Positions 9,925-56,034 of a stretch of DNA of 64,000 nt are shown here, in pieces. Each line of letters starts with the position of its first letter. Within the stretch, counting starts at the first letter, position 1. Below the pieces are notes generated by a model. It was not told the DNA's origin. It was given only the letters and a program-made list of their open reading frames with translations, and made no database searches. The DNA is from Catellatospora bangladeshensis (GTDB lineage Bacteria; Actinomycetota; Actinomycetes; Mycobacteriales; Micromonosporaceae): positions 1 through 64,000 of the forward strand of contig NZ_BONF01000011.1 of the NCBI RefSeq assembly GCF_016862575.1. Reading direction: 5' to 3'. Made by a program: the position numbers and the translations under genes.

Positions 9925-9937
9925 CCAAGCACCAGCT

Positions 9938-9986
9938 GGTACGAGGTCGCGCCGTCACGAATTCCGTGGCGGCGCGACCTCGTACC
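9938..9986. terminator. Rho-independent-type hairpin after the large secreted protein
   Basis: A perfect 17-bp stem (arms 9938-9954 and 9970-9986, GGTACGAGGTCGCGCCG and its complement) around a 15-nt loop. It lies between the stop at 9924 and the convergent regulator gene ending at 10043, so it can terminate both. Confidence 0.75.
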
Positions 9987-10042
9987 CCGTGGTTCTCCAG
10001 GCAGAGATCGACGGGCAGCGCCCGTGCCTATCTGCTAGGTGT

Positions 10043-39392: not shown

Positions 39393-42300
39393 GTGGCGAC
39401 GAGTATCCACGACATCCTGCACGAGCTTCAGGTCACGTCGACCGACGAGCGCGACAAAGGCGACAAGTTCGAGCGCCTGATCGCCGCATATCTCCGCATG
39501 GACACCGCCTGGTCTGACCGCTTCAGCAACGTCTGGTTGTGGGCAGACTGGCCTGGCCGCGCCGGCAAGCCCGACACGGGGATCGACCTCGTTGCCGAGG
39601 AGCGGGAGACCGGCGCTCTGACCGCGATCCAGTGCAAGTTCTATGACGCCTCCCACACGCTTCAGAAGAACGACATCGACTCGTTCTTCACCGCGTCGGG
39701 CAAGGCCCCGTTCACCGGACGCATGATCGTCTCCACGACTGACAAGTGGAGCACTCACGCCGAGGACGCTCTCGCCGACCAGCACATCCCGGTTACCCGC
39801 CTTCGCGTGCAGGACCTCGACGAGTCGAGCATCGACTGGTCGCAGTTCAGCCTGAAGCAGCCCGAGGTGATGACACTCCGGGCGAAGAAGGTTCTGCGCC
39901 CTCACCAGACGACGGCCTTGGAGAAGGTCCGCGAGGGCTTCCAGGCACACGACCGCGGCAAGCTCATCATGGCCTGCGGCACCGGCAAGACCATGACCTC
40001 ACTCCGCATCGTCGAGGACCAGGTCGCACCGGGCGGCATGGTGCTGCTGCTCGTGCCCTCGATTTCGCTGCTCTCGCAGACGCTGAAGGAGTGGACCTCC
40101 GAGGCAGAGGTACCGCTTCGTCCCTTCGCGGTGTGCTCTGACGTACGTGCGGGACGGCGTACCGAAAGCGAGGACATCTCGCCTTACGACCTCATCTTCC
40201 CTGCCACTACGGACCCTCAGAAGCTGCACGCTCAGGTGAACGAGGGTCAGCACGGCGGCAAGATCACGGTCATCTTTTCCACCTATCAGTCGCTGCCCGC
40301 CGTGGCTGCGGCCCAGAGGGCCGGACTGCCCGAGTTCGACTTGATCGTCTGCGACGAGGCACACCGAACTACGGGCGTGACGCTCGTCGATGAAGACGAG
40401 TCGAACTTCGTCAAGGTGCACAAGCAGGAGTTCGTCAAGGGCGCGAAGCGCCTGTACATGACAGCGACCCCGCGCATCTACGACGACGGCAGCAAGTCGA
40501 AGGCTGACGAGGGCTCTGCCGAGTTGGCGTCGATGGACGACGAGGCCATGTTCGGGCCGGAGTTCCACAGGCTCGGATTCGGCGAGGCTGTCGACAAGGG
40601 CCTGCTGGCTGACTACAAGGTGCTAGTACTCGCCGTTGACGAGCGGGCCGTCAGCGCTACCTTCCAGCAGCAGCTTGCCGACGAGGACAGCGAGCTTCGC
40701 CTGGATGACGCCGCGAAGATCGTGGGCTGTTGGAACGGCCTCGCCAAGCGCGGCCAGGCCGAGTCCGGTTTCGGTACGGACCCCCGCCCCATGACCCGTG
40801 CGGTTGCCTTCGCGCGATCGATCGAGGACTCGAAGAAGTTCGCCAAGCTGTTCACGAGCATCGTCGACCAGCACATCACGTCGCTCGCCCTGGACGACGA
40901 TGAGACCTCGAACGAGCCGCTGCTGCGCTGCCAGGCAGATCACGTAGACGGCACCTTCAACGTTCTGCGTCGCAGTCAGAAGCTCGACTGGTTGAAGGCG
41001 CCAGCCGAGGCAGACTCCTGCCGGGTGCTGTCGAACGCTCGATGCCTGTCCGAAGGCGTAGATGTACCAGCGCTCGACGCGGTGATGTTCCTGAACCCAC
41101 GGAACTCTGTCGTCGACGTCGTGCAGTCCGTCGGCCGGGTGATGCGCAAGGCGCCGGGCAAGCAGTACGGCTACGTGATCCTGCCCATCGGCATCCCAGC
41201 CGAGATGACGCCTGAGCAAGCCCTCGCCGACAACCAGAAATACAAGGTCGTCTGGCAGGTGCTCCAGGCGCTGCGAGCGCATGATGAGCGCTTCAACGCG
41301 ATGGTCAACCAGATCGAGCTGAACAAGGCGCGGCCGGACAAGCTCCAGGTCATCGGCGTCGGAGGTTTCGAGGGCGAACCCGGCGAACAGCGCAACCGGC
41401 AGCAGTACGTCCAGCCGGGGTTCGACTTCCCGCACATCGGTGAATGGCGCGACGCCATCTACGCACGCATCGTTCAGAAGGTCGGCAGCCGCCGCTACTG
41501 GGAGGACTGGGCCAAGGACGTATCGGTCATCGCTGAACGGCACACGACGCGCATCAGGGCACTGCTCGGAGACCCCACGCTCCACGTCAACGACACGTTC
41601 GAGGACTTCCTCAACGGCCTTCGCGCCAACCTCAACGATGGCATCACACGTGACGACGCCATCGACATGCTTGCCCAGCACCTCATCACGAGGCCGGTTT
41701 TCGAGGCGTTGTTCGACGGCTACTCCTTCGCGGAGAACAACCCAGTGTCCAAGGTGATGCAGGGGATGCTCGACGCGCTCGACGAACAGAACCTCGACAG
41801 CGAGACCGAAACGCTGGATCGGTTCTACAACAGCGTCCGCTTGCGCGCCGAGGGCATCGACAACGCCGAAGGCAAGCAGAAGATCATCACAGAGTTGTAC
41901 GAGAAGTTCTTCAAGATTGCGTTCCCACGTGCGGCCGAGTCTCTGGGTATTGTCTACACCCCGGTCGAGGTTGTCGACTTCATCATCCGCAGCGCCGAGG
42001 AAGTTCTGCGCCGCGAGTTCAACGCATCAATAAGCGATCGAGGAGTACATGTACTCGATCCTTTCACCGGTACGGGCACGTTCATCGTCCGGCTACTTCA
42101 GAGCGGAATCATTCGATCTGAGGACCTGCTTTACAAGTACACCCAAGAGCTTCACGCTAACGAAATCCTGCTACTGGCGTACTACATCGCGGCCATCAAC
42201 ATCGAAGCCACCTACCATGGCATCGCGGGCGGTGAGTACGTTTCGTTCAACGGCATCGTCCTGACGGACACTTTCCAGATGGCCGAGGACGGTGACCCCA

Positions 42301-44207
42301 TGGACGAGTTCATCTTCCCGCAGAACAACGAGCGCGTCGCGCATCAGAAGAGCCTGGACATCCGGGTCATCGTCGGAAACCCGCCCTACTCGGTTGGACA
42401 GACCAGCCAGAATGACGGTAACCAGAACCAGAGGTACCCAACTCTGGACGCCTCCATCGCTCGCACTTATGCCGCGCGCTCAACCGCGACGAACAGAAAC
42501 TCGCTGTACGACTCGTACATCCGAGCCATCCGCTGGGCTTCGGACCGGATCGCCGCATCGCAACAGGGCGGCATAATCTGCTACGTCTCTAATGGCGGCT
42601 ACATCGACTCCAACACGGCTGATGGCCTACGTAAGAGTCTTGCCGAGGAGTTCCACGCCATCTACTGCTTCAATTTGCGTGGAAACCAGCGCACTGCCGG
42701 AGACCTATCGAAGCGCGAAGGCGGCAAGATCTTCGGGCAGGGCAGCCGCAGCACCGTTGCGATACTGCTCCTAGTCAAAAAGCCAGGCGCGTCCGTCGGC
42801 GCACAGATCTACTACCGCGACATCGGCGATTACCTCACGCGGGAACAGAAGCTCGCCGTAGTTGCAGGCAACTCTATCGACACAATCGACTGGCAGCCGA
42901 TCACGCCGAATGACGACGGCGACTGGATCAACCAGCGCAGTGCTTATTTTGAAGCCTTCTCTCCCATGGGCGCGAAGGCTGACGACCAAGCAAGTGTCTT
43001 CCGAACATATTCCGGCGGACTCAAGACCAACCGAGACGCATGGGTCTACAACTCATCACGTGACGCACTGCAAGTCAACATCGGACGAATGGTCGGCCAC
43101 TACAACAATCAGGTTGCGGAGTACGCCGAGTTCTGCCGACGTGAAAAGGTCGTGGACCCAAAGGCGGGTGTTGATTCGTTCGTCGACCTTGATCCGAAAA
43201 AGATCAGCTGGAACCGTGCCGACAAGGCGAACCTGGCACGCGGGGTCTATTATCCCGTCCACACAAACGCGATAACTGTCAGCACATACAGACCGTTCAA
43301 CAAGCAATACGTCTACTTTGATCGCCAACTGAACGACATGATCTATCAGTTGGCGAAGATCTTCCCGACTTCAGATCACTCCAACTTGGGGTTCTACATC
43401 GTCGGAATGGGCTCCGCCGTACCGTTCTCTGTTCTTATGATCGACTCGCTTCCCGACCTGCATGTAACAGGCGCAGGTAGCGGAGGCCAATTCTTTCCCC
43501 GATACACCTACGAGCAGTCAACGGGACAGGCGAATCTGTTCGACAATGGAGACACAGACGCATATAAGCGCATCGATAATATCTCCGATGAGATCCTGCA
43601 AGGCTATCGCAGCACCTACGGAGCACTGGTTACAAAAGACGATATCTTCTACTACACATACGGCCTGCTTCACTCTCCAGAATATCGATTTGAATACGCT
43701 GCCGACCTCAAAAAGATGCTCCCGCGGATTCCCCAGGTCGCAACGGCGGAGGACTTTGCCACCTTCTGCGCCGCAGGACGCAAATTGGCGGAGCTCCATG
43801 TCGGCTATGAGCAGGTCGACCCGTATCCGCTTGATGAGATCGTTAGGCCAGGGGCGGACGCGGCACACCCAGACTTCTACCGCGTGGAGAAGATGACGTT
43901 CGGCAAGGCGGGCAAGTCTGTGGATAGGTCCACCGTGGTCTACAACAGCAACATCACCCTCAAGGGAATCCCTTCCGAGGCTCACGACTACATGCTGGGC
44001 TCGCGGTCTGGTGTTGAGTGGATCGTTGAGCGGTACCAGGTGAAGACCGACAAGGCCAGCGGCATCGTCAATGACCCGAACGACTGGGCGGCCGAGGCGG
44101 GTGACCCGCGCTACATCATCGACCTGCTAAAGCGCATCGTGACCGTCAGCGTGGAGACTGTCCGTATCGTCAACGAACTGCCACCGTTGAAGCTCGCCAC
44201 GTCGTAG
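39393..44207 (+). CDS. Type ISP restriction-modification enzyme (nuclease-helicase-methyltransferase-specificity in one chain)
   Basis: 1604 aa. Mrr-like nuclease: GDKFERLIAAYL, PDTGIDLVAEE (Asp65), AIQCKFYD (QxK, Lys82). RecA-like motor: Walker A ACGTGKTMT (about 194-202), DEAH box CDEAHRTTG (320-328), YMTATPRIY, SNARCLSEGVDVPALDAV and QSVGRVMRKAPG. A helical coupler, then gamma-type N6-adenine methyltransferase: LDPFTGTGTF (from 888) and VGNPPYSVG (NPPY 996-999). A long target-recognition region follows to the end. Size and order match LlaGI/LlaBIII-type enzymes, which methylate one strand of an asymmetric site and translocate to cut. All motifs are intact, so no separate modification gene is needed. 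Confidence 0.93.
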   Translation: MATSIHDILHELQVTSTDERDKGDKFERLIAAYLRMDTAWSDRFSNVWLWADWPGRAGKPDTGIDLVAEERETGALTAIQCKFYDASHTLQKNDIDSFFTASGKAPFTGRMIVSTTDKWSTHAEDALADQHIPVTRLRVQDLDESSIDWSQFSLKQPEVMTLRAKKVLRPHQTTALEKVREGFQAHDRGKLIMACGTGKTMTSLRIVEDQVAPGGMVLLLVPSISLLSQTLKEWTSEAEVPLRPFAVCSDVRAGRRTESEDISPYDLIFPATTDPQKLHAQVNEGQHGGKITVIFSTYQSLPAVAAAQRAGLPEFDLIVCDEAHRTTGVTLVDEDESNFVKVHKQEFVKGAKRLYMTATPRIYDDGSKSKADEGSAELASMDDEAMFGPEFHRLGFGEAVDKGLLADYKVLVLAVDERAVSATFQQQLADEDSELRLDDAAKIVGCWNGLAKRGQAESGFGTDPRPMTRAVAFARSIEDSKKFAKLFTSIVDQHITSLALDDDETSNEPLLRCQADHVDGTFNVLRRSQKLDWLKAPAEADSCRVLSNARCLSEGVDVPALDAVMFLNPRNSVVDVVQSVGRVMRKAPGKQYGYVILPIGIPAEMTPEQALADNQKYKVVWQVLQALRAHDERFNAMVNQIELNKARPDKLQVIGVGGFEGEPGEQRNRQQYVQPGFDFPHIGEWRDAIYARIVQKVGSRRYWEDWAKDVSVIAERHTTRIRALLGDPTLHVNDTFEDFLNGLRANLNDGITRDDAIDMLAQHLITRPVFEALFDGYSFAENNPVSKVMQGMLDALDEQNLDSETETLDRFYNSVRLRAEGIDNAEGKQKIITELYEKFFKIAFPRAAESLGIVYTPVEVVDFIIRSAEEVLRREFNASISDRGVHVLDPFTGTGTFIVRLLQSGIIRSEDLLYKYTQELHANEILLLAYYIAAINIEATYHGIAGGEYVSFNGIVLTDTFQMAEDGDPMDEFIFPQNNERVAHQKSLDIRVIVGNPPYSVGQTSQNDGNQNQRYPTLDASIARTYAARSTATNRNSLYDSYIRAIRWASDRIAASQQGGIICYVSNGGYIDSNTADGLRKSLAEEFHAIYCFNLRGNQRTAGDLSKREGGKIFGQGSRSTVAILLLVKKPGASVGAQIYYRDIGDYLTREQKLAVVAGNSIDTIDWQPITPNDDGDWINQRSAYFEAFSPMGAKADDQASVFRTYSGGLKTNRDAWVYNSSRDALQVNIGRMVGHYNNQVAEYAEFCRREKVVDPKAGVDSFVDLDPKKISWNRADKANLARGVYYPVHTNAITVSTYRPFNKQYVYFDRQLNDMIYQLAKIFPTSDHSNLGFYIVGMGSAVPFSVLMIDSLPDLHVTGAGSGGQFFPRYTYEQSTGQANLFDNGDTDAYKRIDNISDEILQGYRSTYGALVTKDDIFYYTYGLLHSPEYRFEYAADLKKMLPRIPQVATAEDFATFCAAGRKLAELHVGYEQVDPYPLDEIVRPGADAAHPDFYRVEKMTFGKAGKSVDRSTVVYNSNITLKGIPSEAHDYMLGSRSGVEWIVERYQVKTDKASGIVNDPNDWAAEAGDPRYIIDLLKRIVTVSVETVRIVNELPPLKLATS

Positions 44208-46227: not shown

Positions 46228-47352
46228 TCATCGTCTGGCGGACTTGAGCCCGATTTCGATGATCTTCGCAGCCGAGTCGGCTGCGCGGCTGATTCTGTTG
46301 AGCACTGCCTCGGGCAAGTGCAGAACGGCCAGTCCAGCGCGTCGGCTGATGTTCTGTAAGTCGGTGATCTGATCGTGTGTGATGCCCTCGATGGGTTCGC
46401 GGAAGCCGAGTACGTCTCGTGCCGCGTAGCCGTCGGTGCTGTTGATCGCGAGCGCGGCCGTGCGATGGAGTAGCCCGGTGGCCGCCTCGGGCCAGATGCC
46501 GTGAGCGAGGATGGTGACGGTGAGTCCGAGACGGGCTCGGTATGAGGCGTAGTTGGCCGCAGGCGGCGCGGTGGCGAGGCGCCGCATCGCGGTGGCGAGG
46601 TGATCCTTCACGCGCGTGGCGTCGGGTGGGCTGCACATAAGTTGCAGGCAGGAGGCCACCTGTTGTTCCCAGGGTTGGGTCAGGACACTGCTTGCAAGGA
46701 TCTTGTTGGCTTCGGCAGGATCACCTACGGCGCATTGGGCGATGATGAGGGCTTGGCGTCCCTCCGTCAGGTGGGTGCCGACGCCCCTGTACGCCAGAGC
46801 GTGGTCAGCTGCGTCGGCCCAGCGGTTCGCCATGGTCAGCGCTCGGATGCCCTCGCCTAAGAGTTGGAGCCACACCCATTCGACCATCCTGCGGCGTTCA
46901 GCCTGTTCGCCGGTGAGGATCGCGGTGGGCAGTGTGCGTCCGTCGATGACGAGGTCCGTTCGTTCGGTCACGGCTCGGTGGACGGCTTTGAGGGCGGTGA
47001 CCGCGGATTGGCCTTGCTCGGATCGGATGTCGAGCCGTGCCAGGTTGATGACGGGTTCGAGCATGTAGCGCGCTTCGGTGAAGGTCAGAGGACGCTCGGC
47101 CGTCAGGTAGGCGCTGATGTGCTGCCAGCACAGGGCGCGGGCCATGTCCGCCATGCCCGCGTCGCTGGCGATGAGCGCGGCCTTGTTGAGCGCGTGTGCC
47201 GCGTCGTCCATGCCATGGTCCAACTTCTCCACGGCGGCGTTTGCGAGGTCGATGACCTCCTTGATCCGTAGGGGCAGCGCGGGGCAGTCTGGTCGTGGAC
47301 GTCCAAGCAACGGGAAGCGGCGTGCAGCTGCGGCGAAGGGGGTTGGTTGCAT
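46228..47352 (-). CDS. Helical-repeat hypothetical protein, last gene of the lanthipeptide operon
   Basis: 374 aa (MQPTPFAAAARRFPLLGRP). Almost entirely helical, with Ala-rich pairs resembling TPR: IDLANAAVEKLDHGMDDAAH, ALIASDAGMADMARALCWQH, IRALTMANRWADAADHALAY, RQALIIAQCAVGDPAEANKI. No catalytic residues are seen. Its start is 1 nt after the stop of the thiopeptide-type gene, so it belongs to the same transcript. Similar helical proteins accompany FxLD-type clusters in actinomycetes and may bind peptide or regulator; this is inference. Confidence 0.65.
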   Translation of the reverse strand: MQPTPFAAAARRFPLLGRPRPDCPALPLRIKEVIDLANAAVEKLDHGMDDAAHALNKAALIASDAGMADMARALCWQHISAYLTAERPLTFTEARYMLEPVINLARLDIRSEQGQSAVTALKAVHRAVTERTDLVIDGRTLPTAILTGEQAERRRMVEWVWLQLLGEGIRALTMANRWADAADHALAYRGVGTHLTEGRQALIIAQCAVGDPAEANKILASSVLTQPWEQQVASCLQLMCSPPDATRVKDHLATAMRRLATAPPAANYASYRARLGLTVTILAHGIWPEAATGLLHRTAALAINSTDGYAARDVLGFREPIEGITHDQITDLQNISRRAGLAVLHLPEAVLNRISRAADSAAKIIEIGLKSARR

Positions 47353-47353
47353 G

Positions 47354-48313
47354 TCAGCTCCCGGGAAGGATCGCGGTGGCGGCTGCGCGGGCGAGGACGC
47401 CCTGTGCGGGGGCAGTCAGATCGAGCCGGTTCCAGGCGAAGATCACGGCGTGAGCGATGGTCGCTCGCAAGCCGCGGCCTAGCCGGGCGGTGTTGGCCGC
47501 TTCGGCGAGTTGGTTACCGGCTTTGGCGTAGGCGTCGTGCCACGAAGACGCGGACGCGAGCGCCCCGGTCGCGTCGAACAGCGCACTGTGCGCCTCGGCG
47601 GGCAGTCCCAGGAGCGGGCGCAGCTTGTCCGCCAGACGCTCGGTGCGTGTGAGATCGGAGGTGGCGGGTTGCGGTCGCATACGGGCTACGCGGTCGAACA
47701 CGTCGGCGGCTTCGTACCAGTCCAGACCGGCGTGCTGTTGCAGGGCTCGGATGAGCAGGATCGATAGCTCCCGGCGGCCCAACGGGAGCGGATCTTGGGC
47801 GACGTAGGCCAGGAGGCTGCGACTGTCTGCGCAGAACAACTCGTGGACGATGTCCATGGCGGTGTGCCCGCCGAAGGCTGCGAGTTCCGGCTCGTAGATC
47901 GCGCCGGGCTCCCAGGCGGTGATGGTGCCGGCGGCGGCGAGTTCGTCGAGCGTGTTCTTGGCCGCGCTGCGGTTGGCGGTGCGGATGCGAACTCGCCAGT
48001 GCGGGTGCTTGCGCAGGAACCACCAGGCGGCGTTGCCGCCGTCGAGTAGGTCCAGTCGCGGGCCGATCTGCTCCCGGAACGCCCCCTCGGCCTGGTCCCA
48101 GTCGGCGGGCGTGAGGCGGGCGCTGAACCAGGCAAGGTCGTATGCGTGGTGGAGGGCGGTCTGGCCGCCTGTGCGGTAGGTCTCGATCGCGGCTTTGACC
48201 TCGGCGAGGTTGATCGCGGCGTCGGCTGCGGCGGTGTCTGCCGGAGTTCCGGCGAGGACGGCCTCGACGGCGGCGGTCAGGACGGCCGGATCGGTCAGGC
48301 GATAAGGAGACAT
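47354..48313 (-). CDS. Thiopeptide-type bacteriocin biosynthesis domain protein (SpaB-C/LanB elimination-domain-like)
   Basis: 319 aa from ATG 48313, preceded by AAGGAG within the end of lanC (19-nt overlap). It contains AWFSARLTPADWDQAEGAFRE, AAWWFLRKHPHWRVRIRTA (the WffiRK..HwRvR signature of thiopep_ocin/SpaB_C), AAGTITAWEPGAIYEPELAA and FGGHTAMDIVHELFCADS (GG...m...H..F..DS). In LanB enzymes this fold eliminates glutamate to give dehydro-residues. Since the LanB next door already has its own copy, this stand-alone protein may add another step, such as N-terminal or ring modification. Confidence 0.85.
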   Translation of the reverse strand: MSPYRLTDPAVLTAAVEAVLAGTPADTAAADAAINLAEVKAAIETYRTGGQTALHHAYDLAWFSARLTPADWDQAEGAFREQIGPRLDLLDGGNAAWWFLRKHPHWRVRIRTANRSAAKNTLDELAAAGTITAWEPGAIYEPELAAFGGHTAMDIVHELFCADSRSLLAYVAQDPLPLGRRELSILLIRALQQHAGLDWYEAADVFDRVARMRPQPATSDLTRTERLADKLRPLLGLPAEAHSALFDATGALASASSWHDAYAKAGNQLAEAANTARLGRGLRATIAHAVIFAWNRLDLTAPAQGVLARAAATAILPGS

Positions 48314-49452
48314 GTGTCCCACCTGGTTCGAGGGCTGTGGGTAAGCGTCCGCGTGGCCAGCAGGTAGCCCGCTGTGCCGGTGAGGAAGCTGTGGTCTTGG
48401 TGTCCCGGCTCGGCGTGCGTGAGGACGGCGGCGATGTGGTGCAGCTGGTCGGCCAGGGCGCTGGTGCGGGCATCTGCGGCGGCGCGGTATGCCGTCTGGT
48501 AGAGCCCGGCGATGCCATGGCACAGGCCAGGGTCTGCCAGCAGCCGGATGTGGGCGGTGGACAGGTGCGCGGCGAGTGCGTGTTCGGCCACGTCGCGACG
48601 GGCGGTGTTGCCAGTGGCGATGGCGGCCAGCTGGAGCGCGCGGGCGATGCCGGGTGTTCCGTAGCACCAGGATGGTCGGCCGGGTCCGATGGTGGGCCGT
48701 GCGGTGCGCAGGTCGTCCCGGGTGATCCATTGCGGCCACCAGGGGCCGAGTGGGCCGTCCTGCCGCCAGCTGTCGAACCAGGAGGCCAGGTCGTCGATGG
48801 CTTCCAGTAGCCCGTCTAACTGGATGCCCTGGCGCGCGGCGAGGGCGAGTGAGGCCAGCAGCCCGGCGGCGCCGTGGGCCATACCGAGGTTGGCATGGCC
48901 GCCTGGTGTGGGCAGGGTCGGGTCGGGGTCGTGGTCGACCCACCAGCCGGGCAGCGTGTCCCCGTCGTCGGTGCGCTGTCGGGTCAGGCGTATGGCGTAG
49001 GTCAGCACGTCTGCGTACTCGTCGCTGTCGGGCATGCATCGTCGGAGCAGGGCGCTGAGGCCGGTGAGCCCGTAGAAGAGGTCGTACTCGCCGAAGCTGG
49101 TGTGCCGGCCGCTGCGGTGGCGTTGCTCGGCCGCCGCCAACCGCTCGCGGACGAGGTGCCGGACGTGGCCGCTCAAGGTCGCGCGGGCGGTGCCGTAGCG
49201 GTCCTGCCCATCGGCGGTCGCGGCGTCCAGTAGGAGCAGGATCGCCGGGGCTCCGTAGAAGAGGCTGCTGTGGGCGGCGGCGTCGACAGGTCCACTCGCG
49301 GCTCGTTTGATGAGCTGGCGGGCGTCAGACCAGTCTCCGGTGCTGAGCGCTTGCTCGACGGCGAGCAGCGCGATGCCCAGATCGCCGGTGATCAGCGACT
49401 GCTCTCCCGCCTCGTCGTCGGTGATGCTGGCGGCATCGATTGTGTCGGTCAT
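48295..49452 (-). CDS. lanC: Lanthionine synthetase C-family cyclase (LanC)
   Basis: 385 aa (MTDTIDAASITDDEAGEQS). Double alpha-barrel pattern with SLFYGAPAILLLL, YDLFYGLTGLSALLRR, HANLGMAHGAAGLLASLAL, SWCYGTPGIARALQLAA (zinc Cys), DPGLCHGIAGLYQTAYRA (zinc Cys-His) and FLTGTAGYLLA. All zinc ligands (C, C-H) are present, so it should catalyse thioether ring formation between Cys and dehydro-Ser/Thr of the precursor. It overlaps the lanB stop by 4 nt. Its C-terminus overlaps the next gene. Confidence 0.93.
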   Translation of the reverse strand: MTDTIDAASITDDEAGEQSLITGDLGIALLAVEQALSTGDWSDARQLIKRAASGPVDAAAHSSLFYGAPAILLLLDAATADGQDRYGTARATLSGHVRHLVRERLAAAEQRHRSGRHTSFGEYDLFYGLTGLSALLRRCMPDSDEYADVLTYAIRLTRQRTDDGDTLPGWWVDHDPDPTLPTPGGHANLGMAHGAAGLLASLALAARQGIQLDGLLEAIDDLASWFDSWRQDGPLGPWWPQWITRDDLRTARPTIGPGRPSWCYGTPGIARALQLAAIATGNTARRDVAEHALAAHLSTAHIRLLADPGLCHGIAGLYQTAYRAAADARTSALADQLHHIAAVLTHAEPGHQDHSFLTGTAGYLLATRTLTHSPRTRWDTCLLIA

Positions 49453-52400
49453 GGCCGTGCCGCCTTGGCCAGGCAGAGCATGGCCGCTGCGCGAGCGGCG
49501 TGGTTGGTCGCACGCTCGAACTCTGGATCGACACCGACCGCCCGGACGTGGTGTTCGTGCAGGAGACTGCGCAGCACCGTTAGCGGATCGCGCTGCGGCA
49601 GTAGACAGGCCCGGTACCGTTCAACAGCGATATCCCGGTGCTGCCAGCTTTCGGCGATGGCTTCGCCGCCGGGCAGGCTTTGAAGGAAGTGGTGCTCGCC
49701 GCCCGGGTCGGCCAGGCGCCGGGCCAGTTCGGTGAGTGCGCGGCTCGCGGGTTGCGTCACGTTCTCCAGACACGTGAGTAGCGCTCGCCATCCGGTGGCC
49801 GGGTCTTCAGCGAGTGCGGCGGCGAGCCGGGTCATGGAGACGGCGGCAAGGGCTTGTGCCGTCGCCTCGGCCATCGCGGGTGTGATGTGCCCGGCTGGTT
49901 CGATGCGTAGTTGTTCGGCGGTGCGGATCTGCGCGATGGCGGCTGCGGTATCAGTGGCGAAGACCCGCTCGGCTTCGAGCATGGCCGGGCCTTCGCCGTA
50001 GCGGCCGGTGTGCCGGTGGTAGGCGGTGAAGGTCAGCTCGGCGGGAAGGCCGCCCGCGGCCAGGCCGGCGGCGAACTCCGCCACCTTCGCCGCGATGGTC
50101 GCGTACGCGGCTGTGGGATCGAGCCGCAGGAACAGCGAGAGATGTTGGTCGGCTTCGACGCGGATCGTGTCGCGGTGACGGGTGACCCACCAATCGTCGA
50201 CGCCGTGTTGTGTGAGGCGTGCGGCTAGGGACGGCAGGTGGTCGGTCAGCAGGGTGTCGAAACGTGCTGGGGTGCCGACCAGCCGGGCGTGGACGATGTC
50301 CGCCGCGCCGGGTTGTGACGTGCCGCCCGGCGTGGCGGTGACTGGTAGACGCCGTATCGGCGGTGTTGCCGGGGTCAGGGCGGTGAGGAATTCGGCGGGG
50401 CGGCCGATCCAGCCGAATCCGTCTTCGGGGGCGTCTTCTCGCAGTTCGAGGCGTTCGACCTGCGTGAGGCGGTGGCGCAGCAGCTCCCGGTCCAGCGGTT
50501 GGTCGAGGTCCAACGGTTGGCGTACCTCACCGTGGCACAAGACGACTCGGGCGGGTACACGCCAGCGCCGTCTCCAGGTCCGTAGGTCCGCTGTCCAGCG
50601 GCTGCTGTCGGTGATGGTCGGGGTGATGTCGGTGCTCGACAGTAGCCAGCGTCCGGCGGTCAGCAGGGTGCGGCGGTAGCGGATGCGCGGGACGTACGGC
50701 AGGTTACGGGCGGCTGCGCCGAGGTCCAATGGCCCGAAGACCGCACTGCGTGCCTCGGCGACCTCGGCGATGAATCGGGCCAGCGGCGGCGTCTGGACCA
50801 CCAGGTCCAGGGCGTGCAGGACGCGGGGGATCACCATCCGCCCGGTGGGTTTGTGGGCGAGGTACAGCTGCTCGGCGTCGGCAGTGACGGCGAGGTCGTC
50901 GACCGTGATCACGTCGGTGTCGGCGTACTCGGAAACCGTCATGACGTCTGGAAGCAGCTGGCCGACGCGGGTCACGTTCTCGTTGTGGATCCGGCGGGGC
51001 GGAAACGACATCTGGACGGTCATTGCCTCGGCGCTCGTGCCGACCGCGAAGGAGGCGGCGACCTGTTGCTGGTCGGTCGGATCGAGCAGGTACGCGAACC
51101 GGCCTGCCATGCTGGTCGGCGTGCGGGGAGCACCGGTCACCTGCAGCGCGAAATCGCCAGCTGCCAGCGCTTCGCAGCTGGCGGCGTAGACGGCGAAGCC
51201 CAGCTCGACACGCGAGGGTGGCACGACTGTGGCGTGGTCACCGGTGGTCAGCGCGTCGATGTCGGCGTCGGTCAGCTCGATCTCGTCTGTGCCGTCCAGC
51301 AGTGCTCGCTGGATGAGCGCCATCAGGTGCACGTCGCGTTCGGTGACCGCGCGCCAGGACGGACGGGCGCGTGGTGCGCCGAGAAACCCGGCCGGGTATC
51401 CGAGACCGGAGTCGGCCACCAGGTCCCGCACCGCGACCAGCGCGCCAGGGCCGTAGCGGTCGCGGAATCGGGCGTGGTAATCCAGCCAGGAGATCGACCC
51501 GAAGGGCTGGGTGCTGATCTGCAGCAGCACCGCGGCGGCACGAGCCGCTTCGTCTATCACCTGCTGCGGGACGCTGATGTGCGCGTCCAGGTGCAGGTCG
51601 ATGGCGAGCTGGTGCTCGGTACCGGGTGCGATGCCGGCCATGGTCTCGGTGACCGAGGCACGGATCGTCGCGGCGTCGGCGGGCGAGTCGGCACTGTTAT
51701 GACGGGCAAGCTGCATGTGGACGTCGCGCAGCTGCTTGACCGTGGGCGCTATCTCGCTGATGTCGTCGGCGCCGGCCGCGTCGAGCACACGGAGGACGTG
51801 AGCCAGGCCGTCCACGGCAGTCAGCGGCGGCTGGAGGCTCGTGATCAGATGGCCACTGCTGATCAGGCGGTGCAGCAGCGCCTCGATCCTCGCCGGTGCG
51901 ATGGACGGCCCGGCTGCGGCGACCCGAGATAGGAGGTCGCTGAACGGGATCGGCTTGGCCGCGTGTTGAAGAACGAGGCGAACGGCCGGGGTAAGAGTGG
52001 TCGACGTTTCCCGGGGTGTGCCCGGTTTCCGCGATCCCGCTTCCGGGCGCGCGTTCACGATGACCCGGCCGTCGCGGACGGTGGCGGCGCTGTCGGCGGT
52101 GACGGAAAGTCTACGGCGCAGATCGTGGCTCTGTCCGAGTCTGGCGAGCGCGATGGCGAGCCAGTCGGCATCGACGCGGGCGATGGCACGGTGTCTATCA
52201 CCGATCTTCGCCTCAGCTGGTCCGGTAGCCGCCGTCGTGACCGCTGCGAACAGGCCGAACGGCGTGGTTCGTCGTCTCCAGCGCAGCAGGTAGGACGCGA
52301 GGGCCAGGGATGCTCTGCGGGCGGCGGCAACGTCGGTGTCAGCCGGAGCTGCGAGGATCTGGCCTACGCGGAGGGCGAGGTCGGGGCTGGCCGTGGAGAT

Positions 52401-52574
52401 CGCCTCACGGATGTGTGGTTGTTCCCAGGACTTGGCCAGCCAGTCGATCGCCGCTGGTGCGTCAACGATCGGAACGGCCAGGCTCGCGGTCGGATCGGGC
52501 TGGATGCCGGGGTCGGTGCTGGTGCGTACCAGCAGCGGGCCGACCGGCCGGAATCGGGTGCGCGCGGGCGGCAC
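49449..52574 (-). CDS. lanB: Class I lantibiotic dehydratase (LanB)
   Basis: 1041 aa from GTG 52574 with GGAGG 8-12 nt upstream. The glutamylation domain spans about 1-730 (TRFRPVGPLLVRTS, YLLRWRRRTTPFGLFAAVT with the RxTPFG motif, FGSISWLDYHARFRDRYGPG, RYRRTLLTAGRWLL), and the elimination domain about 770-1030 (VDDWWVTRHRDTIRVEADQ, FTAYHRHTGRYGEGPAMLEA with the R/YGG/E..ml..e pattern, VFATDTAAAI). It would use Glu-tRNA to activate Ser/Thr of the precursor and then eliminate to Dha/Dhb. Full-length, not split. A hairpin separates it from the precursor gene. Confidence 0.95.
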   Translation of the reverse strand: MPPARTRFRPVGPLLVRTSTDPGIQPDPTASLAVPIVDAPAAIDWLAKSWEQPHIREAISTASPDLALRVGQILAAPADTDVAAARRASLALASYLLRWRRRTTPFGLFAAVTTAATGPAEAKIGDRHRAIARVDADWLAIALARLGQSHDLRRRLSVTADSAATVRDGRVIVNARPEAGSRKPGTPRETSTTLTPAVRLVLQHAAKPIPFSDLLSRVAAAGPSIAPARIEALLHRLISSGHLITSLQPPLTAVDGLAHVLRVLDAAGADDISEIAPTVKQLRDVHMQLARHNSADSPADAATIRASVTETMAGIAPGTEHQLAIDLHLDAHISVPQQVIDEAARAAAVLLQISTQPFGSISWLDYHARFRDRYGPGALVAVRDLVADSGLGYPAGFLGAPRARPSWRAVTERDVHLMALIQRALLDGTDEIELTDADIDALTTGDHATVVPPSRVELGFAVYAASCEALAAGDFALQVTGAPRTPTSMAGRFAYLLDPTDQQQVAASFAVGTSAEAMTVQMSFPPRRIHNENVTRVGQLLPDVMTVSEYADTDVITVDDLAVTADAEQLYLAHKPTGRMVIPRVLHALDLVVQTPPLARFIAEVAEARSAVFGPLDLGAAARNLPYVPRIRYRRTLLTAGRWLLSSTDITPTITDSSRWTADLRTWRRRWRVPARVVLCHGEVRQPLDLDQPLDRELLRHRLTQVERLELREDAPEDGFGWIGRPAEFLTALTPATPPIRRLPVTATPGGTSQPGAADIVHARLVGTPARFDTLLTDHLPSLAARLTQHGVDDWWVTRHRDTIRVEADQHLSLFLRLDPTAAYATIAAKVAEFAAGLAAGGLPAELTFTAYHRHTGRYGEGPAMLEAERVFATDTAAAIAQIRTAEQLRIEPAGHITPAMAEATAQALAAVSMTRLAAALAEDPATGWRALLTCLENVTQPASRALTELARRLADPGGEHHFLQSLPGGEAIAESWQHRDIAVERYRACLLPQRDPLTVLRSLLHEHHVRAVGVDPEFERATNHAARAAAMLCLAKAARP

Positions 52575-52609: not shown

Positions 52610-52642
52610 GCTGCCGGAGCCCGGCTTGCGGACTCCGGCAGC
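52610..52642 (-). terminator. Attenuator-like hairpin between precursor and lanB
   Basis: A perfect 10-bp stem GCTGCCGGAG / CTCCGGCAGC with a 13-nt loop, 28 nt after the precursor stop. It has no T-run and so is likely a partial terminator or an RNA stabiliser giving more precursor than enzyme mRNA. Confidence 0.6.
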
Positions 52643-52670: not shown

Positions 52671-52859
52671 TCAGTTCGGGTCGTAGGACGAGGTGTTGCA
52701 GGCGCTGGTGTTGCAGGTGGCGCCGCAGCCGTCGCTGGTGCTGCACATCATGACCACCAGCGGCGTGGTCGCTTCGACCACGCGCATGTCCAGGTCGAAG
52801 TCCTCGTCGGTGAGGACGGCTTCGGGGGCGTCGAGGACCGCGGTCGGCGGCATCGACAT
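52671..52859 (-). CDS. lanA: FxLD-family lanthipeptide precursor (LanA)
   Basis: 62 aa from ATG 52859 with GAAGGAG 7 nt upstream. The leader is acidic and contains the FDLD motif at residues 21-24 (EDFDLDMRVVEATTP), the recognition signature of the FxLD family. The core (about from 31) has Cys39, Cys45, Cys49, Cys54, eleven Ser/Thr and one Asp-Gly (43-44) in CSTSDGCGATCNTSACN. With LanB/LanC this can give up to four thioether rings. The leader cleavage site is not obvious and no LanP protease or ABC exporter is adjacent; the permease in the operon is of the APC type. Confidence 0.92.
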   Translation of the reverse strand: MSMPPTAVLDAPEAVLTDEDFDLDMRVVEATTPLVVMMCSTSDGCGATCNTSACNTSSYDPN

Positions 52860-52909
52860 CACTCTCCTTCGTGAGAAGTGAAAGGGGTTCCTTGCCACCT
52901 GGCCCGAGT

Positions 52910-54148
52910 TCAGCGTTGGGGAGATCCGCTGTCCTTGGGCCAGGAGATCGTGACGACGCCATGGGTCTTGGCCATGGCGTCGGTGCCGGTGGGGGCCTGC
53001 GTCTGGCCACCGCTCGGCCAGTAGGCGAAGGTCGGTTCGGTCCGGCGGCCGTAGCGGTCCCACGCCTGGATCTGCTCCACCATCGCCGTGGCGGCCAGCT
53101 CGCCGCCGTCGCCGTAGCCGCGAGCGCCGAACTCCGCGCCGGTTCCCTCAAGGGCTGGCCGCACCACCAGGTAGGCGAACCCACCACCGCTTACGACACC
53201 GAACGGGAACCACTGCTTCTCACCGGCCAGGACCGTGCCGGGTTCGGCGGTGAAGCGGCAGAAGCCATCCAGGTACCACGCGAACCACAGATGCAGGTCG
53301 ACGAACGAGACCCCATTCGGAATGGTCACGCCTGACCAGACCTCGGCCCGCTCAGTGGCGAGCGCTCCGTCGAGCTGATGCATGTCGTCGGGTGCGCCGG
53401 AGTCGAACGCCAGCCGGACCTTGTGGCCGTTGGCGTCGGGCAGCTCGAAAACCCGATCGGCGTGGCCGCCGTCGCCCTGCATCGGCACGAAGCCCGCGAT
53501 CTCCGTAGCGGTGCTGACCAGGCGGTCGCCATCGCGGCGGAAGCCGATCACCCGCGTGACATTGTTCATGATCAGCGGCACGACGATCACGCCGTCCGGT
53601 CGCAGCTGGCGCAGCCACGCCGGAGCGATGTCCCACGCGCCCACCGTCACGATGATGGCGTCGAACGCGTCCTCGTCCGGCACACCGTGCTCAGCGTCTA
53701 CGGTCAGGACGCGTACGCGGCTTCCGTAGCCACTCGCATCCAGGGCGGTCGCGGCGCGGTCGATAACCTCCGGGTCGATGTCGATGCTGACCACCCGGCC
53801 CTGCGGCCCGACGATCTCGGCGATGTAGGCCGCGTTGAGTCCGCCGCTGCCGACCTCCAGCACCGACATGCCTGGCCGCAGCTGGGCCTGCTCCAACATC
53901 ACCGCCTGGATGTAGGCCGCCGACACAGACGACATCGCGCGGCCGTGTTCGTCGCGCTTGGTCACGACCGAGTTGTCGTAGCCGTACACCTCGGCCAAGT
54001 CCGTGCCCTCGGGCATGAACCGCTCGCGGGGAACCTGGCGAATCGCCGCCTCTACCGCGTCGGACGTGATCTTGCCCTGGGTGCGCAGTTCGGCGATCAG
54101 CACGTCTCGCATCTCGGCGGCACGGTCGGCATCAACCATCTGGACCAC
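52910..54148 (-). CDS. FxLD-system methyltransferase (protein L-isoaspartate O-methyltransferase-like)
   Basis: 412 aa from GTG 54148 with AAGGAG 6 nt upstream. N-terminal PCMT fold: QVPRERFMPEGTDLAEVYGY, MSSVSAAYIQAVMLEQAQL, PGMSVLEVGSGGLNAAYIAE (SAM motif I), VVSIDIDPEVIDRAATAL, EDAFDAIIVTVGAWDIAPAW and LRPDGVIVVPL. The C-terminal 170 residues are specific to lanthipeptide-linked enzymes. Relatives in other class I clusters methylate an Asp in the core, giving aspartimide or isoaspartate. The single Asp-Gly of the adjacent precursor fits that role. The gene directly precedes lanA. Confidence 0.88.
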   Translation of the reverse strand: MVQMVDADRAAEMRDVLIAELRTQGKITSDAVEAAIRQVPRERFMPEGTDLAEVYGYDNSVVTKRDEHGRAMSSVSAAYIQAVMLEQAQLRPGMSVLEVGSGGLNAAYIAEIVGPQGRVVSIDIDPEVIDRAATALDASGYGSRVRVLTVDAEHGVPDEDAFDAIIVTVGAWDIAPAWLRQLRPDGVIVVPLIMNNVTRVIGFRRDGDRLVSTATEIAGFVPMQGDGGHADRVFELPDANGHKVRLAFDSGAPDDMHQLDGALATERAEVWSGVTIPNGVSFVDLHLWFAWYLDGFCRFTAEPGTVLAGEKQWFPFGVVSGGGFAYLVVRPALEGTGAEFGARGYGDGGELAATAMVEQIQAWDRYGRRTEPTFAYWPSGGQTQAPTGTDAMAKTHGVVTISWPKDSGSPQR

Positions 54149-54196: not shown

Positions 54197-55009
54197 TCAG
54201 TTCAGCTGCTGGCAAATCAGGCGGTGGCTAGACAAGCCGGGCTGCTCCATAGGCTCGGTGGGGAGCGCGACGCCGGCCATCAGCGCGAGACTGGCGAAGG
54301 TCGGCGGGCGCTTCGGCCATAACCGGTAAATCAGCTTCGGCAGGACATAGGCCGCTGCGACGCTGTCCCAGTACGCGCGGTGAGGCTGACTTCTTCCGGC
54401 TGCGGCATGCATCGCCTCCCGCAGCCGCAAGCTGTCCACCAGCGTCAACAGCTTGCGATCGGGAAACGCCATGGTCCGCGCAAGCCGAAGGGTGTCGAGC
54501 AGGCCCGCCGGGCGAAGTCCGGGAAGGTGCCTGCTCAGCAGCCGCCAGTCGACCAGCACGTTGTGCCCCACCACCCACTTTCCGTCGATCAGCTCGCCCA
54601 AGGTGGGCGCAATGCTGTCCAACGTCGGAGCCGTAGCGAGGACCTCGTCCGTCAAGCCGGGTGCGAGCCACGCTCGCGGCGGTATCGGCCGCCCAGGGTT
54701 GATCAGCGAGGTGAACGCACGATCGAGGTCAGGTTGGCCGCGAAGTAGCGGGACGGCGGCGACTTCCAGGATCGCCTCGGCGTCGTGGTCCTGTGCGCCG
54801 CTGCCCTCCAGGTCGAGGGCAACGATGTCGGCGGCGTGCCACGGCGGGGAACCCACCGGGGCCAGTCTTCCGTACTTCGTGCGGGCCGTCGGTGTCCCGC
54901 GCCGCTTGCCGATGCTGGCCGCGTACGCCGCCCAGCGCCGATGGACGAGCCCGGTCGGCGCGGTGCCAGCAGCGACGGCAGGTGACGAACCGATCACCTT
55001 TGTGATCAT
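54197..55009 (-). CDS. DnaQ-like 3'-5' exonuclease domain protein
   Basis: 270 aa from ATG 55009, overlapping the glycosyltransferase-like stop (ATGA). DEDDh motifs: DIVALDLEGSGAQDHDAEAI (D-x-E, Exo I), LIDGKWVVGHNVLVDWRLLS (H-N...D, Exo II) and SQPHRAYWDSVAAAYVLPKL (H....D, Exo III). The catalytic set is complete, so it should remove nucleotides from DNA or RNA 3' ends. Such a protein within a lanthipeptide operon is unusual; it could act on tRNA-derived products of the Glu-tRNA-using LanB or be a hitchhiker. Confidence 0.8.
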   Translation of the reverse strand: MITKVIGSSPAVAAGTAPTGLVHRRWAAYAASIGKRRGTPTARTKYGRLAPVGSPPWHAADIVALDLEGSGAQDHDAEAILEVAAVPLLRGQPDLDRAFTSLINPGRPIPPRAWLAPGLTDEVLATAPTLDSIAPTLGELIDGKWVVGHNVLVDWRLLSRHLPGLRPAGLLDTLRLARTMAFPDRKLLTLVDSLRLREAMHAAAGRSQPHRAYWDSVAAAYVLPKLIYRLWPKRPPTFASLALMAGVALPTEPMEQPGLSSHRLICQQLN

Positions 55010-56034
55010 GAAACTGCCTCCAGCATCGAGAGGGCCTGGCGCGCGACGAGCGAGCAGCGGAACGGTTCCAGCCGGGCGAAGCAGGCCGTCAGCAGATCGG
55101 CGTGTTCTCTGGTGCCAGCCAGACTGCGCAGCCACGCCAGCCGGTCGATGACGTCCTGGCCGTCAGTGACGTGTAGGTCGCGAGGCAGGTAGACGTCGGC
55201 GCCGCGCATCTCGATCGGTGCGAGCGGGATGCAGCCCGCAAGCAGCGCCTCCCACCACCGCGACGACAGGTGCCCGACGCGCCACAGCCGCTCCGGTTGG
55301 AGCAGAACGGTCGCGAGCGATCGGCAGTACATCCGCTCCACCTCCCCGAAGGCGATCGGCCCGACGAACTCCACGTGTGGCCACGCCTCGGCCTTGGGCC
55401 AGTTGCCGGCCACCTGGTGCTGCACGAGTTCAGCCGCGGGCGAGAAGAACCGCTCGAAGTGCTCGTCGAGGTCGCCGCCGTGCTGGTTGCCCACATAGGC
55501 CAGCGGCAGTTCGCGCACCTTCCGAGCCAGCCGCTGTGTATCGGCGATATCGAGCAGCTGGTCGGGTACAGGGCACGCCAGCCATCTGGCACCCGGGGTA
55601 GCCAGCGGGGTCGTCTCGCCGACCGCGACGTTCGGCAGGACGCGCAGCGGATCATCGGCGGACAGTTGCCGGTGGAGATCCCAGATCAGGGTGGGGGTCG
55701 CGCGCTCGCGGGTGTACCAGTCCAGCAGCTCGGCCTGCCTGTGCACCTCCGTGTCGCGGGTGAAGCCGTGCAGAAGGTTGCGCTCTGTTGGCCAGCGCCA
55801 TTCGAGGATCAGCGCGTCGAGGTCAGGAAAGTAGATCGACTCCCACCGGTAGGTGCTGGTCAGGTCGAGTCCTGCCTCCAGCAGGTCTCGGTTGCGCTGG
55901 AGAAGCACGATCTGGTGGCCCTCGGCCGTGAACCTGTCGAGCAGCGCCCGGCGGTACGCCCGCGAGTTGTCGGAGGTGTCGATCACGCCGGGGCCGAGGA
56001 AGCCCCACATGCTGTAGCCGATGCGCATCGTCAT
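55006..56034 (-). CDS. Glycosyltransferase-like protein (CgeB/GT-B type)
   Basis: 342 aa (MTMRIGYSMWGFLGPGVID). N-terminal Rossmann half with RRALLDRFTAEGHQIVLLQR and LDALILEWRWPTERN; the C-terminal half has LPLAYVGNQHGGDLDEHFERF, WPHVEFVGPIAFGEVERMYC and SSRWWEALLAGCIPLAPIE, similar to the nucleotide-sugar site of GT-B enzymes (E-A...G..P). It could glycosylate the lanthipeptide or a surface polymer. Overlaps of 4 nt on both sides show it is an integral operon member. Confidence 0.6.
   Translation of the reverse strand: MTMRIGYSMWGFLGPGVIDTSDNSRAYRRALLDRFTAEGHQIVLLQRNRDLLEAGLDLTSTYRWESIYFPDLDALILEWRWPTERNLLHGFTRDTEVHRQAELLDWYTRERATPTLIWDLHRQLSADDPLRVLPNVAVGETTPLATPGARWLACPVPDQLLDIADTQRLARKVRELPLAYVGNQHGGDLDEHFERFFSPAAELVQHQVAGNWPKAEAWPHVEFVGPIAFGEVERMYCRSLATVLLQPERLWRVGHLSSRWWEALLAGCIPLAPIEMRGADVYLPRDLHVTDGQDVIDRLAWLRSLAGTREHADLLTACFARLEPFRCSLVARQALSMLEAVS

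Follow-up and report, generated by a model that had tools for sequence, protein, structure and literature searches.

The locus described here raises two questions: which residue of a lanthipeptide precursor its methyltransferase modifies, and which of two lyase domains eliminates glutamate when that precursor is dehydrated. The window, a 64,000-nucleotide stretch of the Catellatospora bangladeshensis contig NZ_BONF01000011.1, carries a lanthipeptide cluster that belongs to class I and, within it, to the LanSA (FxLD) kind of actinobacteria. The kind is common, with matches at E values up to 1e-60 in 75 of 150 genomes from the window's family; a family search across the whole phylum returned 8 of 396 genomes. 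A first-pass annotation had paired an FxLD precursor with a PIMT-like methyltransferase, and both lie where it placed them, on the minus strand and above curated cut-offs.

52671..52859, minus strand: lanA, precursor peptide of 62 aa, with FxLD as FDLD at residues 21-24 and the core after about E29
52731..52733, minus strand: codon of lanA Asp43, the predicted methylation/aspartimide site inside the predicted ring T41-C45
52910..54148, minus strand: LanSA-type PIMT-like O-methyltransferase of 412 aa

The precursor reads MSMPPTAVLDAPEAVLTDEDFDLDMRVVEATTPLVVMMCSTSDGCGATCNTSACNTSSYDPN, with the core CSTSDGCGATCNTSACNTSSYDPN. Its frame runs from an ATG at 52859 to a stop ending at 52671, a ribosome site of GGAG type lies immediately 5', and the peptide scores 54 bits against TIGR04363 ('FxLD family lanthipeptide', curated cut-off 30). 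Among the six-frame stop-to-stop ORFs of the window, [TS]xD[GN]C occurs in one and FxLD in four; lanA alone has both in that order and is therefore not a chance frame. Its own motif is TSDGC, in which Asp43 precedes Gly44. The residues past position 29 include one Asp-Gly, two Asp (D43 and D60), N50 and N55. The single Asp-Gly previously claimed for the core is thus present, but the core quoted with it was too short, as TSSYDPN continues it and adds Asp60. The description as a four-Cys lanthipeptide gave the right number of Cys, but just three rings (T41-C45, T48-C54 and T56-C49) map onto CoiA1; these are predictions made by analogy, by hand and via residue numbers. A fixed ring partner for Cys39 was sought and rejected, since by eye no one Ser/Thr position is common to all Cys39-bearing cores.

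The methyltransferase reaches 476.4 bits against TIGR04364 ('methyltransferase, FxLD system'), far over the curated cut-off of 320. It carries a SAM-type motif, VLEVGSGGLNAA, at residue 96. PF01135 spans residues 15-224, so that a C-terminal extension follows the PIMT domain, with WDRYG at residue 363. A WXXXGXP motif near the C terminus is reported for the lasso, graspetide and imiditide PIMT subgroup in the available part of a review (PMC13001092); the window enzyme has WDRYGRR, that is WxxxG without the Pro. Among 86 methyltransferase domains in LanB loci, the full WXXXGXP is found within the last 70 residues of 17, a W-xxx-G/N form in 13 and neither in 56. The shared PF01135 catalytic domain could also belong to a housekeeping isoaspartate repair enzyme that is a chance neighbour of the cluster. 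This is scarcely credible, as the housekeeping profile TIGR00080 scores 95.7 bits, below its cut-off of 159.05, against the high TIGR04364 score, and the pairing with an FxLD lanA repeats in relatives.

Conservation of the core was followed in 100 loci, made up of 19 named methyltransferase-related loci, 80 regions from the window's genome and family, and 20 kb of the window itself; L020, a distant match, is excluded from the set. LanB is present in 76 of them. A profile of leader segments only, with the core ignored, was run against all small ORFs at E values up to 1 and identified 73 precursors (68 distinct cores) from 72 of the 76 loci with LanB, so that L013, L077, L088 and L109, which gave no match, lie outside the precursor counts. 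A motif-free precursor scan was also run, and its many chance ORFs were discarded by eye. [TS]xDxC occurs in 72 of the 73 precursors, a count that very dissimilar leaders could escape because the leader segments were drawn from motif-bearing peptides. Gly follows the Asp in 55 of these, Asn in 15, and Ser and Gln in one each. The lone exception is the second peptide of L086, with SSGGC and Gly where Asp is expected. This peptide (DSSGGC, minus strand near 8029) sits beside a normal precursor as a natural variant lacking the Asp.

The position of Asp60 is more variable: among 27 window-type precursors, 23 have D there, 2 have N and 2 have E. Because the motif Asp is kept in 72 of 73 precursors whereas Asp60 varies, homology and conservation together make Asp43 very probably the target of methylation and aspartimide formation. 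The related LanSA enzyme OlvSA, in the available part of the review, methylates the OlvA Asp after cyclisation, the modified residue lying in the N-terminal MeLan ring, and the methyl ester passes through an aspartimide to 70-80% isoAsp and 20-30% Asp (PMC13001092). OlvSA is also said there to accept isoAsp. Together with the presence of Asp60, N50 and N55 past residue 29, this would allow the enzyme to modify another residue (Asp60, or Asn50/Asn55 once deamidated), with Asp43 structural. That seems very unlikely given the near-invariant motif Asp, the substitutions at Asp60 and the ring position of the modified OlvA residue; furthermore, the tail motif is absent from other precursor types adjoining the same enzyme. 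The succinimide or isoaspartate proposed earlier at position 43 therefore fits the LanSA literature in residue, enzyme kind and chemistry, as well as the conservation, but the idea was not new. In the available portions of two surveys the conserved core Asp and TxDGC motif are already described for this group (PMC7268733, PMC10787088), and one of them reports 1305 lanthipeptide PAMT clusters (PMC10787088). The aspartimide reading is sound but already published for this cluster kind, and in this respect the window adds a further member to a widespread, studied group.

The cluster is larger than the precursor and methyltransferase, which the first-pass annotation had placed correctly; LanB, LanC, a standalone glutamyl lyase and a further protein (H) follow. 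The lyase and the altered state of LanB, both relevant to ring stereochemistry, had been overlooked.

52610..52642, minus strand: stem-loop between lanA and lanB, with 14-nt arms 93% complementary (z -4.66)
49449..52574, minus strand: LanB of 1041 aa, with PF04738 and PF14028
48295..49452, minus strand: LanC cyclase of 385 aa, with PF05147 and the motifs WCYG (262) and CHG (311)
47354..48313, minus strand: standalone glutamyl lyase (GL) of 319 aa from the start codon chosen here, with TIGR03891 (157.4 bits) and PF14028 found on a longer frame
46228..47352, minus strand: protein H of 374 aa, no NCBIfam or Pfam match

The WCYG and CHG motifs of LanC are presumably of the Zn-ligand type. The stem-loop is a possible attenuator or processing site. 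Mean folding energy over the 110 nt 3' of lanA is -53.5 in window-type loci and -50.0 to -52.2 in the other typed groups, with -47.3 for the window itself; random stretches from the same loci, a crude control, average -42.1. Among LanB loci, 80 of the 117 that have an additional glutamyl lyase encode protein H, compared with none of the 16 that do not; some of these 16 are cut or broken (L014, L017 and L098, for example). The protein may correspond to CoiH of the coi cluster, perhaps serving the syn-lyase. Profile scans of ten ORFs between 44946 and 56426 gave no match to protease or transporter families. The cluster is flanked by a 1604-aa protein (39393-44207) that by eye resembles a fused helicase/DNA methylase, and by an exonuclease-like protein (RNase_T, 54197-55135).

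The two domains of LanB differ in the state of their functional residues. In the glutamylation domain R98, R102 and T104 correspond to NisB R83, R87 and T89, as in class I enzymes that glutamylate. In the elimination domain S813, F815 and H855 stand where NisB has R784, R786 and E823, so that the glutamate-binding Arg are missing, while R858 and H1006 (NisB R826 and H961) are retained. This mapping onto NisB is based on a full-length match to MibB, a weak match of GL to NisB (E 0.31), a motif alignment and a fold match; a phmmer search of the C-terminal part of LanB against solved structures gave no convincing match. In the predicted structure (pLDDT 78.7) the elimination domain still has the lyase fold, and it matches MibB (Z 26.0, rmsd 3.1, 271 aligned).

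GL shows the complementary pattern. It has K102, R107, R109 and E143, with A146 at the NisB R826 position, and so carries the published signature of syn-glutamyl lyases: the active-site Lys in its special position, the two Arg that bind glutamate, and a hydrophobic Ala in place of Arg826. The AlphaFold2 model (pLDDT 88.5) has LanB elimination domains as its best solved matches (Z 16.6, rmsd 3.8-3.9, 249-251 aligned). A separate lyase of this type, SptBb of SapT, makes (E)-Dhb according to the available parts of two reports (PMC9890492, PMC9011353). The reported effect of CoiA1-T57S had suggested that elimination by the syn-lyase depends on a Thr in the reverse ring (excerpts of PMC9486935). 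Such a dependence was considered and rejected as a rule, since by eye Ser stands at that position in several standalone-lyase clusters (L003, L010, L012, L079 and L085, as well as those of the CxSC types).

Because GL has the glutamate clamp that LanB has lost and is without the Arg826 that LanB has kept, a division of labour is the simplest reading. From the genes, motifs and conservation observed, we infer the following catalytic steps, their order and the resulting rings. LanB would transfer glutamate from Glu-tRNA onto core Ser/Thr, and the standalone syn-type lyase would eliminate most of it, because the LanB lyase pocket has no glutamate-binding Arg. LanC would then close the three rings mapped onto CoiA1, and the methyltransferase would act on Asp43 in the first ring, giving an ester, then an aspartimide and mostly isoaspartate. 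That GL performs most or all of the elimination, with LanB mainly glutamylating, appears evenly balanced on these sequence comparisons. The serious rival to this division of labour is that the LanB lyase of the window's clade still works with a rebuilt pocket, the two lyases sharing the Thr residues as in coi and giving rings of mixed stereochemistry. This is plausible, though its chances fall somewhat below even.

Published mutants bear on both sides of this choice, as far as the available parts of the sources go. NisB R786A glutamylates without eliminating (PMC4979651), which speaks against a rebuilt pocket; because of it, LanBs of the window's clade resemble a natural R786 mutant in which the tested glutamylation residues are kept. 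MadB Arg822, Arg864 and His1005, here taken as NisB R786, R826 and H961, are described as conserved residues essential for elimination (PMC12241602). In favour of the rebuilt pocket, the single change R784A in NisB lowers dehydration in vivo only mildly (PMC4341554), and the coi system needs both of its lyases (PMC9486935). CoiSA(ED) R51A and R53A stay active (PMC9486935), which also counts against the division of labour.

In the first sample, 73 LanBs could be aligned, 26 with window-type precursors (CxTSAC...xP), 44 with other types and three untyped; L007 (two pieces), L013 and L098 (short) were left out. R784 and E823 are present in 44/44 LanBs of the other types and 0/26 of the window type, and R786 in 44/44 and 1/26 (L079). 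Two of the untyped LanBs (L077 and L109) are intact, and L088 keeps R784 without R786 and E823. L079 and L088, which group as sisters in the tree, have one Arg each (HLLQIRLR and HFLRFYIR), and a small shift in the alignment could leave part of the Arg pair retained in them. Conserved columns, taken as those with at least 93% conservation in the other types, are lost in the window type at 8 of 31 elimination-domain positions and 3 of 56 glutamylation-domain positions (Fisher p 0.014). The same comparison gave 1 of 108 and 0 of 134 columns lost in two other groups, and 9 of 80 in a subgroup of five LanBs, where the elimination domain shows no excess (3/30 vs 6/50 in the glutamylation domain). 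Loss of conserved columns is thus not unique, and among the groups compared its focus on the lyase domain is seen in the window type only. Overall the rate of divergence in this domain is little above that of the N domain, with an identity ratio of 0.955 compared with 1.02-1.05 in the other groups. So small a rise in rate, like the predicted retention of the fold, favours a pocket that still works.

A second sample was drawn with the window LanB as query in 394 genomes of the class, of which 46 match at E values up to 1e-100, in at least 59 places, with no more than two candidates scored in each genome; 57 of these were fetched, the two missing ones both being in the window's own genome. Among the matches listed, the 57 places comprise 17 LanBs that have lost both Arg (L180 is gapped at one of them), 39 that are intact and one that is misaligned (L225). 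A standalone GL lies beside all 17 of the Arg-loss LanBs, while 8 of the 39 intact ones have no GL in the fetched flanks, some of which are short or cut by a contig end. The two samples share at least one record (L169 is L004).

In a glutamylation-domain tree of 130 LanBs, the losses fall in one clade of 43, in L220 and in the misaligned L225, giving a Fitch count of three. The sister of L220, L196, is intact (support 1.0). These placements suggest about two true origins of the loss; therefore the sample sizes do not represent independent events. L225, which is truncated in the alignment, is left outside the clade and lyase counts. Within the clade, R784 is kept once (L088), R786 once (L079), both never and E823 in 0/43, while the glutamylation-site R83, R87 and T89 are present in 43/43. 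The 85 LanBs outside the clade (without L220 and L225) all keep R784, R786 and E823, as well as R826 and H961. Below 90% identity the sets shrink to 35 clade members and 81 others.

The clade retains R826 in 43/43 and H961 in 37 of 41 readable LanBs. A dead lyase would not need them, which counts against lost LanB activity, and residual LanB lyase activity is possible on this basis. The rebuilt pocket is also favoured by an Arg at NisB position 788, found in 35 of 43 clade LanBs and 27 of 85 others, which might stand in for the lost pair. Against it, the remaining four have Arg in place of H961 (L185, L087, L101 and L103, the last two being alike), and the R786 site, which never varies in the others, ranks at the 87th percentile of variability for lyase-domain columns of the clade. 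L220, which has lost R784 and R786, keeps E823, has Gln in place of H961 and is accompanied by a standalone syn-type lyase.

A standalone GL is present in 41 of 43 clade loci and in all 41 of those that are neither cut nor broken, and the K/R/R/E/Ala signature is found in 41/41 of these enzymes. The two exceptions, set outside the lyase-presence counts, are L014 (contig end) and L017 (LanB truncated, LanC missing). In L017, a broken cluster of the window type, the LanB ORF (7390-10245) ends inside the lyase domain and neither LanC nor a lyase follows. With L220 included, a standalone GL accompanies the loss in 42/42 evaluable loci. Loci with an intact LanB have a standalone lyase in 41 of 85, a fused one in 31 and none in 13. 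The association has a Fisher p of 2.3e-10, a value inflated by shared ancestry, and again speaks against a rebuilt, working LanB pocket.

The division of labour can also be stated in a stronger form, in which the clade LanB would act as a glutamyl-transferase whose lyase domain folds but is crippled, the standalone syn-lyase would be the sole effective eliminator and every MeLan would be of the allo type. If only the syn-lyase eliminates, all dehydrated Thr would pass through (E)-Dhb and therefore every MeLan ring would be allo-type. This form is put forward tentatively, its chances lying just short of even. If true, the isoAsp or aspartimide at Asp43 lies inside an allo-type ring, and the clade holds a functionally split LanB of about two origins. 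It would also be an exception to the anti elimination expected of full-length LanBs, all of which are predicted to be anti-eliminating in the available text of PMC9486935. The altered LanB of the clade finds no mention in the main-text portions consulted of open-licence PubMed Central papers, PMC11855644 among them.

The LanB/lyase pattern, which lies beyond the coordinates first annotated, is the lasting point of the locus. If it holds, a sequence rule (the state of NisB R784/R786/E823 together with a standalone syn-lyase) would predict ring stereochemistry from a genome, and the clade would be a natural set of clusters for studying how class I dehydration divides glutamylation from elimination. 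The window genome has three FxLD methyltransferases over the cut-off, in three LanSA clusters. The lyase is standalone in the window cluster (C11, L021), fused to the methyltransferase in C58 (L059) and absent from the fetched 18 kb in C10 (L060). These arrangements mirror the standalone, coi and olv forms, a ready internal comparison. What remains of a broken methyltransferase on contig C80 (L027) is two short fragments with 51 and 58% identity to the window enzyme. In 24 of the 100 loci, for instance L011, which shares its record with L102, the fetched flanks of an FxLD methyltransferase contain no LanB, and no shared precursor family was found in them. The neighbour clusters present in at least four of these loci, named by eye, are a regulator-like protein (five, two being the same record) and an ABC-transporter-like protein (four).

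Among known systems, the closest relatives include the olv cluster of Streptomyces olivaceus (OlvA/OlvB/OlvC/OlvSA), reportedly described by Acedo in 2019. For this cluster and for coi of Streptomyces coelicolor (CoiA1/B/C/SA), the likeness was judged on gene set and TxD-C core from published descriptions rather than sequences. According to the available parts of two sources, olv is likewise class I, with a PIMT-like LanSA, a core Asp in the N-terminal MeLan ring and an aspartimide/isoAsp product (PMC13001092, PMC9486935). No extra glutamyl lyase appears in those descriptions of olv, whereas the window has GL and a LanB without glutamate-binding Arg. The coi cluster, in the excerpts of PMC9486935, shares with the window an extra syn-type lyase and a protein of unassigned function, and its ring residues can be mapped from CoiA1. 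However, in coi the methyltransferase carries the lyase as a fusion and CoiB reportedly retains the canonical lyase residues, while the window lyase is standalone and its LanB is without R784/R786/E823 equivalents. As of 2022 the same excerpts give the olv and coi products as unreported from their native hosts (PMC9486935). Precursor families I 1-4 (PMC7268733) and the 1305 PAMT clusters (PMC10787088) resemble the window in their conserved core Asp, TxDGC and PIMT homologue; these are surveys, and the state of the LanB lyase pocket is not discussed in their available portions. The split LanB of SapT (SptBa and SptBb), as described in the available parts of PMC9011353 and PMC9890492, likewise combines a separate syn-lyase with a glutamylating enzyme. 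In SapT, however, SptBa is the glutamylating half alone, whereas the LanB of the window has a full-length lyase domain, predicted to be folded, with an altered pocket.
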